Source: Blastococcus sp. TF02A-35
Lineage (GTDB): Bacteria; Actinomycetota; Actinomycetes; Mycobacteriales; Geodermatophilaceae
Length of the DNA: 64,000 nt
Direction of reading: 5' to 3'
NCBI RefSeq assembly: GCF_004571075.1
Contig: NZ_SPQP01000020.1
Span: 1 to 64,000 of the forward strand
Under the pieces are notes generated by a model, which had not been told where the DNA came from, searched no databases, and saw nothing but the letters and a program-made list of their open reading frames with translations. Shown here one piece after another: positions 15,820-20,054 of this stretch; within the stretch, counting starts at the first letter, position 1; each line of letters opens with the position of its first letter. The translations under genes and the position numbers were made by a program.

Positions 15820-18075
15820 GTGGACCCCGTGCGCCCGATGCCCGACCCTGCCCTGGTCACAGCCCTCGCCGAGGCGCTGGCCCCCGGCGGGGTCCGCAGC
15901 GTCTTCCAGCCCATCGTCGAGCTCGACACCGGCCGGGTCGTCGCGCACGAGGCCCTCGCGCGCGGGCCGCAGGGCCCGCTGGAGCGCCCCGACCAGCTCT
16001 TCGCTGCGGCCCGCGTCGCCGGCCGGCTGGCCGAGCTCGACGGCGCCTGCCGCGTCGCGGCGTTCGACGGCGCGGTGCGGCACGGCGTCCTCGCCCCGCT
16101 CGCCCTGTTCGTGAACGTCGAGCCGGAGGTGCTGGACACCGCACCCCTCGACGAGCTGCTGGCCATCGCCGACTCCGCACCGGGCCGGCTGCGCGTCGTC
16201 CTGGAGATCACCGAGCGGGCGATCGCCGCCCGCCCGGCGGAGCTGCTGCGCACGGTCGCCCGGGTGCGGGAGCTCGGCTGGGGCATCGCGCTGGACGACG
16301 TCGGCGCCGAGCCGATGTCCCTGGCCTTCATGCCCCTGCTGCGGCCCGACGTGGTGAAGCTGGACCTGCGCCTGGTGCAGGAGCGGCCCGGCCCCGCGAT
16401 CGCCCAGATCATGAACGCGGTCAACGCCTACGCCGAGGCCACCGGCGCCGCCGTGCTCGCCGAGGGCATCGAGGACGGCCGGCACCTGGCGATGGCCCGC
16501 GCCCTCGGCGCGACGCTCGGGCAGGGGTGGCTCTTCGGCCGCCCCACCGACACCCCGTCCACCGACCGGCCCGCCGGCGCGCTCCCCGCGCCGGCGCACG
16601 AGGCGCCGGTCGGGGCGTCCGACTCACCGTTCGCCTGCCTCCCCGAGGGCACCCGGCTGCGGCGCGCCCCCAAGACGCTGCTGATCGAGCTGAGCAAGCA
16701 GCTCGAGCGCGAGGCGATGCGGCTGGGCGAGACCTGCGTCGTCGCGGCCGCGTTCCAGGAGGCCCGCCACTTCACGCCCTCGACCACCCAGCGCTACCGC
16801 GACCTCGTCGAGCGGACCGGGTTCGTGTGCGCCCTCGGCGAGGGCCTCCCGGTCGAGCCGCTCCCCGGGCTGCGCGGTGCCGACCTCGCGCCCGCCGACC
16901 CGGTGCGCGGCGAGTGGGACGTCGTCGTCCTGGCCCCGCACTTCAGCGTGGCCCTGCTGGCCCGCGACCTCGGGACGACCGGCCCGGACCTGGAGCGGCA
17001 GTTCGAGTACGCGCTCACCTACGACCGCGACGTGGCGGTGCGCGCCGCGCGCAGCCTGCTCGGGCGGGTGGCACCCGGAGCGCCCGGCAGCGCGCCGGAC
17101 CCCGCGTCCCGGCCGGCGCTGCCGGCAGCCACGGCAGCCACGGCGGCCGCCGCCGGGCTCCTCGGCGGCGACGCGCTCGCCCGGCGCGCGCTCGACGCCA
17201 CGCCGAGCGGCGTCTGCCTGGTCGACGTCCGCCTGCCCGACCAGCCGCTGGTCTACGTCAACGCCGCCTTCGAGCGGCTCGCGGGGCTGCCCCGCGAGGA
17301 GCTGCTCGGGCGCAACTGCCGCTTCCTCCAGGGACCGGACACCGACGCCGCCGCGGTCGCCCGCATCCGGGACGCCGTCGCCGCCGGTGCGGAGTGCCGA
17401 GAGGTGCTGCTCAACGTCCGTGGGCCGGAGCGCTACCCGTGGTTCAACGAGCTCCACCTGTCGCCGGTCACCGACGAGTCGGGTGCGGTCGTGCAGTACA
17501 TCGGCGTGCAGGTCGACGTCACCGAGCGCGTCGAGGCCGAGCGCGCGCTGCAGCGGGAGCGGGACCGCTCCCACAGCTACCTCGCGCAGATCGAGGAGCT
17601 CGCCGTCACCGACCCGCTGACCGGCCTGCCGACGGCGGCGCACCTGCGCCAGCAGGTGGAGACGGCGCTGTGGAACGCGCGCGCCACCGGCGACGCCGTG
17701 GCGCTCATCGTGGTCGTCGTGCAGGGCCACGCGCAGCTGGAGTGCGAGCACGGCCCGGCCGCCGCGGAGGCCGCGATGCGGGCCACCGCCGAGCGGCTGC
17801 GGAGCCGGCTGCGCCGCGGCGACCTGGTCGCCCGGTGGACCCGCGACTCGTTCGCCGTCGTCCTCTCGGGGCTGGCCTCGGCCACCAGCGAGGAGGAGAC
17901 CGAGCGGGTGCTCGACCAGCTGACCGGGGCCGTCGCCGGCCCGGTCGTGGTCGAGGACCTCCCCGTGGTGCTCAGCGTGTCGACCGGCGCGGCCCGGTTC
18001 CCCGCCGACGCCGACGACCTGGCCGGCCTGCTGGCCGCCGCCGAGCACGCGGCCGGGCGGACCGCGGCGCGCTGA
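15820..18075 (+). CDS. multidomain signalling protein: EAL - DICT - LOV/PAS - degenerate GGDEF
   Basis: 751 aa, no membrane segments. EAL domain (about 10-245) keeps the phosphodiesterase residues in context: E44-A45-L46, N99, E129, D159-D160, K180, E215/E218, Q235. A DICT sensory domain follows (about 268-400). A LOV-type PAS domain (about 455-572) has the flavin-cysteinyl motif GRNCRFLQG with Cys500, plus N543 in FNEL and the flavin-contacting Gln564 in YIGVQVDVTE. The C-terminal GGDEF-like domain (about 590-748) keeps TDPLTGLPT but has TRDSF (674-678) in place of GGDEF, so it should not be a cyclase. Inference: blue-light-gated c-di-GMP phosphodiesterase. Start uncertain: ATG at 15838 is an alternative and no clear ribosome binding site is seen. 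Confidence 0.85.
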   Translation: MDPVRPMPDPALVTALAEALAPGGVRSVFQPIVELDTGRVVAHEALARGPQGPLERPDQLFAAARVAGRLAELDGACRVAAFDGAVRHGVLAPLALFVNVEPEVLDTAPLDELLAIADSAPGRLRVVLEITERAIAARPAELLRTVARVRELGWGIALDDVGAEPMSLAFMPLLRPDVVKLDLRLVQERPGPAIAQIMNAVNAYAEATGAAVLAEGIEDGRHLAMARALGATLGQGWLFGRPTDTPSTDRPAGALPAPAHEAPVGASDSPFACLPEGTRLRRAPKTLLIELSKQLEREAMRLGETCVVAAAFQEARHFTPSTTQRYRDLVERTGFVCALGEGLPVEPLPGLRGADLAPADPVRGEWDVVVLAPHFSVALLARDLGTTGPDLERQFEYALTYDRDVAVRAARSLLGRVAPGAPGSAPDPASRPALPAATAATAAAAGLLGGDALARRALDATPSGVCLVDVRLPDQPLVYVNAAFERLAGLPREELLGRNCRFLQGPDTDAAAVARIRDAVAAGAECREVLLNVRGPERYPWFNELHLSPVTDESGAVVQYIGVQVDVTERVEAERALQRERDRSHSYLAQIEELAVTDPLTGLPTAAHLRQQVETALWNARATGDAVALIVVVVQGHAQLECEHGPAAAEAAMRATAERLRSRLRRGDLVARWTRDSFAVVLSGLASATSEEETERVLDQLTGAVAGPVVVEDLPVVLSVSTGAARFPADADDLAGLLAAAEHAAGRTAAR

Positions 18076-18389: not shown

Positions 18390-19064
18390 TCAGCTCCGCG
18401 GTGGGAGCAGCGTCCCCAGCCCGCCGTCGGCCAGCGCGGTGAGCTGGTCGACCAGGTCCTGCGACGGCACGGTGCGCGCCACCGACCACCAGTGCGCCGC
18501 CAGCTGCACCATGCCGACGACGCCGTACGCCCACGTCATGGCGCCCTCGGTGGGCCGGCCCGCCTTGGCCAGCCGGTCCTCGATCAGCCCGCCGAGCGCC
18601 GTGGCGACGGCGTGCTCGGTGGCGGCGACGAGGTCCGCCCGGCCGGCACGGCCGGTCTGGGCGTAGGCGAAGCGGTAGAGGGCCGGCTCGTCCTCGATGA
18701 GCGCGACGAACGCGGCGATGACCGCCCGCAGCCGGTCGCGGTCGTCCCCCCGGTCGACGACGAGCTCGCCGAGCAGGCGCGGCAGCAGGATCGCCTGGGA
18801 GATGCGGTCCAGGACGGCGTCGATCAGCTCGTCCTTGTCGCTGAAGTAGCGGTAGATGACGGTCTTCGAGACCCCGGCGCTGCGCGCGACGTCGTCGACG
18901 GAGAAGTCCGGTCCGACCAGCCGCACCGCGGCGACGGCGGCGCCGACGAGGTCCTCGCGACGGGCCCTGCGGTGCTCGGTCCAGCGGGACCGCCGCCCGT
19001 CGGTCGCGGGTGGCGGCGGGGTGGCGGCCTGGGACGCACCCGGCGTCTCGGCCACCCGTTGCAT
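18390..19064 (-). CDS. TetR-family transcriptional regulator
   Basis: 224 aa from ATG 19062-19064. N-terminal helix-turn-helix at about residues 40-80 (FSVDDVARSAGVSKTVIYRYFSDKDELIDAVL), followed by an all-helical ligand domain with FAYAQTGRAGRADLV. The open frame extends three codons to a TTG at 19073, but that would overlap the operator. It is divergent from the diiron oxygenase gene, and the inverted repeat between them is the likely operator for both. Confidence 0.9.
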   Translation of the reverse strand: MQRVAETPGASQAATPPPPATDGRRSRWTEHRRARREDLVGAAVAAVRLVGPDFSVDDVARSAGVSKTVIYRYFSDKDELIDAVLDRISQAILLPRLLGELVVDRGDDRDRLRAVIAAFVALIEDEPALYRFAYAQTGRAGRADLVAATEHAVATALGGLIEDRLAKAGRPTEGAMTWAYGVVGMVQLAAHWWSVARTVPSQDLVDQLTALADGGLGTLLPPRS

Positions 19065-19071
19065 GTGTTCC

Positions 19072-19088
19072 AAGGTAACAGCTACCTT
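19072..19088. promoter_or_regulatory. TetR operator: perfect inverted repeat
   Basis: AAGGTA-ACAGC-TACCTT: two perfect 6-base arms with a 5-base centre, 8 bases upstream of the TetR ATG and 39 bases upstream of the diiron oxygenase ATG. A TTGCAT (19059-19064) and TACCTT (19083-19088) spaced 18 bases could be the plus-strand promoter, with the -10 lying inside the operator. Confidence 0.7.
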
Positions 19089-19127
19089 CCGTTCCAGTCG
19101 TACTCGACGTCCTGGGGGAGCCCGCCG

Positions 19128-20054
19128 ATGACCACCATCCTTCCGTCCGCGCCCGACCGCTCGACGAGCAAGGCGCCCGTCGACCGCCAGGCGCTGTCCA
19201 CCCGGCTGCTCGGGTCGGCGGCCAAGAGGTCCTACGACCCGGTGGTGGACATCGACTGGACGGCGCCGATCCCCGAGGACCTCTACGGTCTGTCACCCGA
19301 GTGGTCGACGCTGTACGGCACGCCGCTGTGGCACTCCCTGGACCACTCCCAGCGGGTCACGCTGACCATCCACGAGTACTGCTCGATCTCCGGCATCGGC
19401 ATCTGGTTCGAGCACCTGCTGATGCAGCTCGTGCTGCGCGACATCTACGGCGACGACCCGGCCCAGCCGCACGTGCAGTGGGCGCTCACCGAGATCGCCG
19501 ACGAGTGCCGGCACTCGGTCATGTTCGCCCGGACCGCCCAGACGTTCGGGGCGCCGTCCTACGGGCCGCCGGCGACCCTGCTGAAGCTGGGCAAGGGCTA
19601 CGCCAAGCGGGCGGACGGGCCGGCCGCGTACGCCGCGATCCTGGTGGCCGAGGAGATCCTCGACATCTTCCAGCGCGACCTCATGAAGGACGAGCGCGTC
19701 CAGCCGCTGACCCGGGCGACGAGCCAGATCCACGTCGTCGAGGAGGCGCGGCACATGCGCTTCGCCCGCGAGGAGGTCGCCCGCCGCACCCCGGAGCTGT
19801 CCTTCCTCCAGCTGCGCCGGCACCGGACGATGGTGGCCGCGTGCGCCGCCATCGTCGCCGAGAACCTGGTGCAGCCCCAGGTCTACGCCGCGGTCGGCCT
19901 CGACCCGAAGGTGGCCCGGGCGGCGGCGCGGGGCAACGAGCACTACAACGCGAAGCTCAAGGAGTCCGCGGCCGGGCTGGTCTCGTTCCTCCGCGGCGTC
20001 GGCCTGGTCGGCGGTCCCTCGGAGCGCCTCTGGAAGCGTGCCGGGCTGATCTGA
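19128..20054 (+). CDS. AurF-like diiron oxygenase
   Basis: 308-aa helical protein of the p-aminobenzoate N-oxygenase (AurF) family. Carboxylate/His iron ligands can be read in HEYCSISGIGIWFE, EIADECRHSVMF, AEEILDIFQRD and VVEEARHMRFAREE, i.e. the duplicated E-x(n)-ExxH pattern of a dinuclear iron centre. ATG 19128 has GGGGGAG seven bases upstream. The substrate is unknown; AurF itself oxidises an arylamine to a nitro group, whereas many actinobacterial homologues act on other substrates. Controlled, by position, by the divergent TetR protein. Confidence 0.82.
   Translation: MTTILPSAPDRSTSKAPVDRQALSTRLLGSAAKRSYDPVVDIDWTAPIPEDLYGLSPEWSTLYGTPLWHSLDHSQRVTLTIHEYCSISGIGIWFEHLLMQLVLRDIYGDDPAQPHVQWALTEIADECRHSVMFARTAQTFGAPSYGPPATLLKLGKGYAKRADGPAAYAAILVAEEILDIFQRDLMKDERVQPLTRATSQIHVVEEARHMRFAREEVARRTPELSFLQLRRHRTMVAACAAIVAENLVQPQVYAAVGLDPKVARAAARGNEHYNAKLKESAAGLVSFLRGVGLVGGPSERLWKRAGLI

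Follow-up and report, generated by a model that had tools for sequence, protein, structure and literature searches.

A Blastococcus protein of EAL-DICT-LOV order with a degenerate GGDEF domain is a candidate blue-light receptor of c-di-GMP turnover

The window, a stretch of 64,000 nucleotides of DNA from Blastococcus sp. TF02A-35 that was analysed as a whole, contains a gene for a 751-residue protein in which Pfam recognises, from the N- to the C-terminus, an EAL domain (residues 15-242, 132.7 bits), a DICT domain (PF10069; residues 282-383, 42.7 bits against a cut-off of 23.8), a PAS_9/LOV domain (residues 471-569, 58.9 bits) and a GGDEF domain (residues 595-745, 72.7 bits), all above their gathering cut-offs (Table 1). 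These four identities had been proposed in a sequence-only reading of the locus and are borne out by the profiles, those of DICT and LOV included. The GTG start codon is unsure, since no clear ribosome-binding site was seen upstream of it. In an AlphaFold2 model of the full chain, built from 39 sequences (mean pLDDT 86.9, pTM 0.58), the EAL and DICT domains are followed by a disordered stretch (423-446), the LOV domain, one long helix (568-596) and a GGDEF fold; the placement of the domains relative to each other was left unused because of the pTM. Foldseek matched this model to the LOV-GGDEF structure 8c05, to the LOV structure 9vf7 (TMt up to 0.93) and to EAL enzymes. The same genome holds 24 EAL matches, 23 of them over the cut-off, together with three flagellin and two PilZ matches.

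Table 1. Features of the EAL-DICT-LOV-pseudoGGDEF gene, in positions of the window.
Feature	Position	Strand	Remarks
EAL-DICT-LOV-pseudoGGDEF gene	15820..18075	+	ORF of 751 aa plus stop
EAL domain	15862..16545	+	residues 15-242; E44, N99, E129, E132, D159, D160, K180, E215, Q235 present; loop 6 DDVGAEPMSL
DICT domain (PF10069)	16663..16968	+	residues 282-383; structural unit about 281-414; predicted PLD-like fold
Disordered joint between DICT and LOV	17086..17157	+	residues 423-446, pLDDT < 50
LOV domain	17179..17514	+	residues 454-565
Cys500, putative flavin-adduct cysteine within GRNCRFLQG	17317..17319	+	sequence motif
Signalling-helix linker	17515..17619	+	35 residues, D of DVT (566) to L of DPLT (600)
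Degenerate GGDEF domain	17611..18051	+	residues 598-744; without the residues of the cyclase and GTP sites
Retained RxxD (RRGD) inhibitory-site motif	17812..17823	+	residues 665-668
TRDSF replacing GGDEF	17839..17853	+	residues 674-678

The EAL domain retains the residue set of a phosphodiesterase (EAL, N, E, DD, K, E and Q), as the sequence-only reading had stated, and ten EAL residues, the catalytic ones among them, are identical in all 124 rows of the family tree, the query included. We take these residues to serve metal binding, the catalytic base and substrate binding, and Glu132 to stabilise loop 6. Eight of 132 rows are left out of the tree and of the 124-row counts: L201, L109, L097, L125 and L127, which are partial, frame-broken or oddly ordered, and L162, L179 and L184, which are EAL-DICT proteins without LOV whose DD motif, contrary to this invariance, is changed. 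Loop 6 departs from the conserved DDFGTGYSS type: the window protein's loop belongs to a family-wide DDVGA[DE]xxSL-like variant, whereas seven other EALs of the same genome have DDFGTGYSSL-like loops. Loop 6 is held to be required for EAL activity in the accessible part of PMC5845226, and its non-canonical form might lower or abolish that activity; excerpts of PMC12900916 list EALs that are functional although some of their signature residues deviate. On its residues, the EAL domain would be an active phosphodiesterase.

The DICT domain is the only DICT match in the genome. Modelled alone from 65 sequences, it reached a pLDDT of 95.2, and its top Foldseek match was the sugar-binding domain of the archaeal regulator TrmB (E 2.9e-4, TMq 0.47). 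In VIA comparisons the model aligned with TrmB (2f5t) at Z 10.7 (rmsd 4.5, 128 aligned) and with TrmBL2 (5bqt) at Z 10.6 (rmsd 4.0, 128 aligned), and 61 of 998 chains lay at Z >= 8; the best value is above, and not far above, the best Z of 7 to 8 that is typical of models without a clear match. All of the 50 VIA matches listed are PLD-fold proteins, judging by their titles and by what we take their fold to be. The domain is accordingly predicted to resemble PLD-fold domains, most closely the TrmB sugar-binding domain, a shared fold that by itself shows no function. The PLD enzyme motif HxKxxxxD occurs in the DICT part of none of the 124 rows, and DICT may be a non-enzymatic sensor through which a ligand acts as input. 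Against PDB sequences the domain had no credible relative, the matches being one designed protein, in which no single stretch passed by itself, and one match at E 1.5. The available text of PMC8846402 counted DICT, as of 2022, with the domains that have no discernible physiological purpose, and a light role for it had been predicted (PMC8612252, in part); since light has its own domain, LOV, in the present family, DICT more likely senses something else. The predicted PLD-like fold provides a testable idea of the sensor's role. MerR-DICT regulators, in which DICT is the presumed sensor of a transcription factor, also occur in the class (L137, L138, L139 and L142).

The best matches among PDB sequences were LOV proteins, namely the LOV-GGDEF cyclase 8c05 (2.1e-30), which is entitled 'LOV-activated diguanylate cyclase, dark-state structure' and is the first match to the C-terminal half, and 9vf7 (4.3e-30), which is also a structure match to the window LOV at 42% identity. 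The domain has the residues of a canonical Cys-adduct LOV (GxNCRxLQ with its Cys, two Asn, a last-strand Gln and an Arg). The complete motif with Cys500 had been placed correctly before; the Asn and Gln named with it correspond to Asn543 and Gln564, and another conserved Asn stands at position 532. We presume the usual roles, with an adduct-forming Cys, two Asn, a Gln on the last strand and an Arg at the phosphate site, and by these residues the domain would bind FMN. The adduct Cys is present in 96 of the 98 rows with a LOV region, and N532, N543, Q564, R501 and Q504 in all 96 Cys-bearing rows; the LOV class was defined by the Asn-Cys of the motif, which makes the conservation of those two columns circular. 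One exact match to the DNA pattern of the adduct motif was found in the genome, inside this LOV, by a search that would miss LOV domains spelled with other letters. Given one DICT match and one exact LOV-motif match in the genome, a knock-out should be clean to interpret. Two Kineococcus members (L106, L112) have lost the adduct Cys and other flavin residues (GRSARHLDG) with their EAL residues kept, and are natural light-blind members of the family.

The replacement of GGDEF by TRDSF, noticed earlier, is confirmed, and the damage is wider: the DLDGFKxVND stretch has become VVQGHAQLEC, the C-terminal ADxxMYxxK is absent, and the metal and GTP residues of an intact cyclase site are lost. Judged by these residues, the window GGDEF is catalytically dead, while its RxxD survives. 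This degeneracy is, on the alignment, confined to some branches. An intact rule, consisting of a GGDEF/AGDEF-type motif and the first Asp, is passed by 78 of the 93 rows with both LOV and GGDEF. In eight of these 78 (L052, L053, L064, L067, L069, L074, L111 and L187) the second Asp of DxD is changed with the GGDEF motif kept, and cyclase decay may be starting in these further branches. RxxD was considered as proof of c-di-GMP sensing and rejected: it is kept in 24 of 25 degenerate and 76 of 78 intact rows, but the inhibitory site is tied to the LOV-GGDEF inhibitory interface (PMC12805367, in excerpt), so that its retention is not decisive.

The linker between LOV and GGDEF, counted as in PMC10396304 (with L098, L121 and L164, which the motif search missed or misread, taken from the alignment), is 35 residues long in 85 of the 93 rows and 21 in the other eight. 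In the accessible text of that paper, the distance from the D of D(I/V)(T/S) to the L of DxLT, either 35 or 21 residues, separates two classes of LadC, with a fold change of >10,000 in the long-linker systems and of about 15-fold with 21 residues. As the lengths are those of LadC, the prediction for the intact family members is a light-activated cyclase and a phosphodiesterase in one protein. The ancestor of the family was probably of this kind, an EAL-DICT phosphodiesterase fused to a cyclase that light activates; its light output was most likely c-di-GMP synthesis, and the linker length points to the cyclase, and not the EAL domain, as the direct partner that LOV had originally. The reuse of both exact lengths supports the linker rule in another architecture.

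The window protein is a real, conserved and well-defined photoreceptor candidate. Its pattern of domains is, by the evidence of relatives at 54-86% identity in dozens of named genomes and MAGs, not due to chance. Near full-length relatives at >= 57% identity occur in 27 of 60 genomes, its own included; 113 relatives from named genomes were confirmed, of whose loci the best 80 of 113 were kept, and the closest named locus, L040 of Blastococcus sp. TF02-8, is 86% identical. In the sequences gathered, the family is seen mainly in Geodermatophilaceae and Kineococcus-like actinobacteria, where family names beyond the record titles are ones we assume. Of 394 genomes sampled from the class, 47 have DICT and 11 have DICT and LOV in the same ORF at E <= 1e-20 (G350 by two separate pieces of a single 828-aa ORF); among 396 genomes sampled from the phylum, one outside the class (G494) also has both in one ORF. 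The EAL-first order with DICT is therefore unusual by frequency, as had been supposed, but it marks a conserved family and not a one-off. No description of the EAL-DICT-LOV-GGDEF order was found in openly licensed PMC papers.

Among 153 distinct DICT ORFs, a set chosen for resemblance to the query or to DICT, whose shares are not population frequencies, 98 are EAL-DICT-LOV-GGDEF, 24 EAL-DICT (three cut by a locus edge, 21 uncut at the C-terminus), six EAL-DICT-GGDEF, three EAL-DICT-LOV and three others, and 19 lack EAL, LOV and GGDEF, the four of these that were scanned being MerR-DICT. From these architectures EAL-DICT appears to be the core, behind which a LOV-GGDEF cassette was added or lost. 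EAL-DICT-GGDEF paralogues without LOV stand as a second ORF (~8-11 kb) in tandem with the LOV form in L083, L105, L062 and L072, and in L116 and L119 such a protein occupies the syntenic place of the LOV form, its GGDEF degenerate as in the four tandem paralogues. Overall, the GGDEF is degenerate in 8 of 8 EAL-DICT-GGDEF rows without LOV.

The query and 11 relatives form a clade, here called the window clade, whose GGDEF domains have lost the GGDEF motif, the C-terminal motif and the residues for metal and GTP but still have RxxD. Mean identity in these 12 rows is 90.0% for EAL, 91.7% for DICT, 87.0% for LOV and 66.4% for GGDEF, compared with 91.4, 90.6, 83.1 and 81.7%, respectively, in 13 intact Blastococcus rows; in this comparison and that of dN/dS, L022 was kept out of the intact group. 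The median dN/dS of GGDEF is 0.48 in the window clade against 0.21-0.39 in four intact groups, and that of LOV 0.18 against 0.18-0.24, the tested LOV residues being kept in all 12 members. The linker has retained its length and relaxed in sequence (0.38 against 0.05-0.18). A Pseudokineococcus-type group (n=5), compared separately from the four intact groups, has 0.25 for GGDEF and 0.17 for LOV. In the intact group Geo_c, where GGDEF dN/dS is 0.39 and the second Asp is changed in five of six rows, cyclase decay may have begun too.

Several members depart from this division. L022 (G007:C1:2336493-2338706), from a single-contig genome, is a natural chimera of a dead-clade EAL-DICT and a live-clade LOV-GGDEF: it is 89.8, 90.5, 67.0 and 45.1% identical to the window clade in EAL, DICT, LOV and GGDEF, whereas its LOV and GGDEF share 83.7 and 82.8% identity with those of the intact Blastococcus clade, which indicates that the LOV-GGDEF cassette is exchangeable. 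Two sister rows from Modestobacter (L104:6001-7845 and L113:6001-7788) are EAL-DICT-LOV proteins that end shortly after LOV, L104 also by Pfam, and downstream of LOV neither has a GGDEF match better than E 0.2. GGDEF is likewise missing from L107, which has a GGDEF match nearby on the opposite strand, and the absence may be a draft artefact. None of the ten rows with LOV absent or dead passes the intact-GGDEF rule, and 18 of the 96 rows with LOV fail it or are without the domain. A link between LOV loss and GGDEF loss is not claimed as statistically significant, with three independent pairs (median p 0.25) and the borderline L106, which fails the rule by the first Asp only and keeps the letters GGDEF; the failure of all ten rows, few events as they represent, is in line with a cyclase dependent on LOV. 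The family is a natural experiment, with members that have a live cyclase, a dead cyclase, no GGDEF, a dead LOV or no LOV, whose comparison opens the question of how the output of a light signal shifts in the course of evolution.

LOV-coupled c-di-GMP enzymes are already known, and the window protein is a variant of these. LadC (MsLadC, 8c05), as far as described in the consulted part of PMC10396304, shares with it the LOV domain, the 35-residue signalling helix and GGDEF, and is the best chain match both by sequence and by Foldseek. The window protein has the LadC succession of LOV and GGDEF through a linker of 35 or 21 residues (here 35), but it carries EAL-DICT before LOV and has lost the cyclase site, whose motif is intact in most family relatives; with EAL and DICT present, it also falls outside the filter of exactly one LOV and one GGDEF given in that source. 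SL2 of Synechococcus elongatus, a LOV-GGDEF-EAL blue-light phosphodiesterase in the available text of PMC8846402 and PMC10396304, likewise unites LOV, GGDEF and EAL in one chain. Its light-dependent c-di-GMP hydrolysis, described in excerpts of PMC8846402, is a precedent for the activity proposed for the window protein. The window protein differs in having EAL at the opposite end, an added DICT and a linker of 35 residues, as against 21 in earlier LOV-GGDEF-EAL constructs (PMC10396304, in part). BlrP1 and other BLUF-EAL light phosphodiesterases resemble it in bringing blue light to EAL but use BLUF instead of LOV, and the accessible parts of PMC4844311 and PMC8846402 name no DICT or GGDEF for them. 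In Microcystis DICT-HD-GYP (PMC7063779, in excerpt), DICT lies beside a c-di-GMP enzyme and is a presumed sensor, as in the MerR-DICT proteins, whereas the DICT of the window protein has EAL before it and LOV after it.

We read the window protein as a cytoplasmic blue-light photoreceptor of c-di-GMP turnover in which light, through LOV, would control hydrolysis by EAL beside a dead GGDEF, with a probability of roughly 0.55. Under blue light, FMN in the LOV domain would form an adduct with Cys500; the resulting change in the LOV dimer would no longer drive a cyclase, since the attached GGDEF is predicted to be dead, and would rearrange the N-terminal EAL or modulate its activity, giving light-dependent c-di-GMP hydrolysis. 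The dead GGDEF would survive as a folded dimerisation or caging part, perhaps also as a c-di-GMP sensor through RxxD, and DICT, adjoining EAL, would be a second input. A LOV domain serving the cyclase only should have decayed with it, and it has not; most simply, LOV reports to EAL as well, and its constraint beside a dead cyclase, together with the Modestobacter proteins that have LOV without GGDEF, makes the phosphodiesterase the most likely target of light. The coupling of LOV to EAL is suggested by comparison of sequences; light might raise or lower the hydrolysis, and the physiological role may lie in the control of lifestyle, motility or pigment in a flagellin-bearing soil actinobacterium. 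The earlier proposal that blue light controls c-di-GMP hydrolysis accordingly stands as the best reading for the window clade; it does not extend to the whole family, whose members are mostly predicted light-activated cyclases and phosphodiesterases in one. More tentatively, and with doubt prevailing, a cyclase-activating light switch may have been kept after the death of its cyclase and re-wired backwards to an N-terminal phosphodiesterase that carries the PLD-fold (TrmB-like) ligand sensor DICT. If true, one orthologous locus would encode blue-light makers of c-di-GMP and sisters that destroy it.

Several points speak against a coupling of LOV to EAL. The partner of LOV expected from the linker length is GGDEF and not EAL; a disordered joint is predicted between DICT and LOV, with no evident signal path towards the N-terminus; the linker sequence is relaxed in the window clade; the estimated GGDEF dN/dS of Geo_c is not far below that of the dead clade; the family-wide loop 6 departs from the DDFGTGYSSL type expected of EAL; and the conservation of LOV could serve a partner protein instead of EAL. 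In line with the last point, LOV might signal through the pseudo-GGDEF to another protein, such as a cyclase or effector, with EAL governed by DICT alone, so that one chain would hold two independent units. DICT follows EAL directly, the pair occurs without LOV and GGDEF in the 24 ORFs counted above, and the chimera L022 (about 90% like the degenerate clade in EAL-DICT, about 83% like the intact clade in LOV-GGDEF) presents LOV-GGDEF as a swappable cassette; yet Modestobacter keeps LOV without GGDEF, and in the window clade GGDEF and linker have relaxed where LOV has not, and we consider this arrangement unlikely.

The loop 6 variant would also fit an EAL that binds c-di-GMP or signals without hydrolysing it, which would make the protein a light-gated receptor. 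The presumed metal, base and substrate residues and Glu132 are nevertheless invariant in all 124 rows, and with deviating EALs on record as functional, as cited above, we give this explanation a rather small chance. That LOV binds flavin mainly as a redox or stress sensor is very improbable: flavin PAS domains can sense redox, as is discussed for RmcA PASd in excerpts of PMC8846402, but the adduct Cys, which redox sensing does not require, is kept in nearly all LOV-bearing rows. Equally hard to credit is a decay of the whole C-terminal half that leaves only EAL-DICT at work in the window clade; the elevated dN/dS of GGDEF and the LOV-less paralogues with their degenerate GGDEF would agree with it, and the low dN/dS and retained residues of LOV in the 12 clade members contradict it.

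Outside the main family, a second set of proteins, 40-46% identical and from the same bacterial family (L120-L124 and the frame-broken L125), has an identical domain order (L122 also by Pfam). A 750-aa frame in L134 (G035:C8:501600-504300) combines EAL (loop DDLGSGWSSL), LOV and GGDEF with no recognised DICT and may have reached the EAL-first order by a second route. As in the window, the gene is flanked by pheS and trmH in 47 of 80 loci, among them L119 with its LOV-less form; 31 of 80, some of them short, have neither. An EamA transporter gene upstream was rejected as an operon partner, with a relative in only 33 of 80 loci, some of which are too short. Downstream, an AurF-type oxygenase has relatives in 21 and TetR in 31 of 80 loci, some again too short; in the window, a divergent TetR regulator and an AurF-type diiron oxygenase occupy 18393-20051, an arrangement conserved in part of the syntenic loci.
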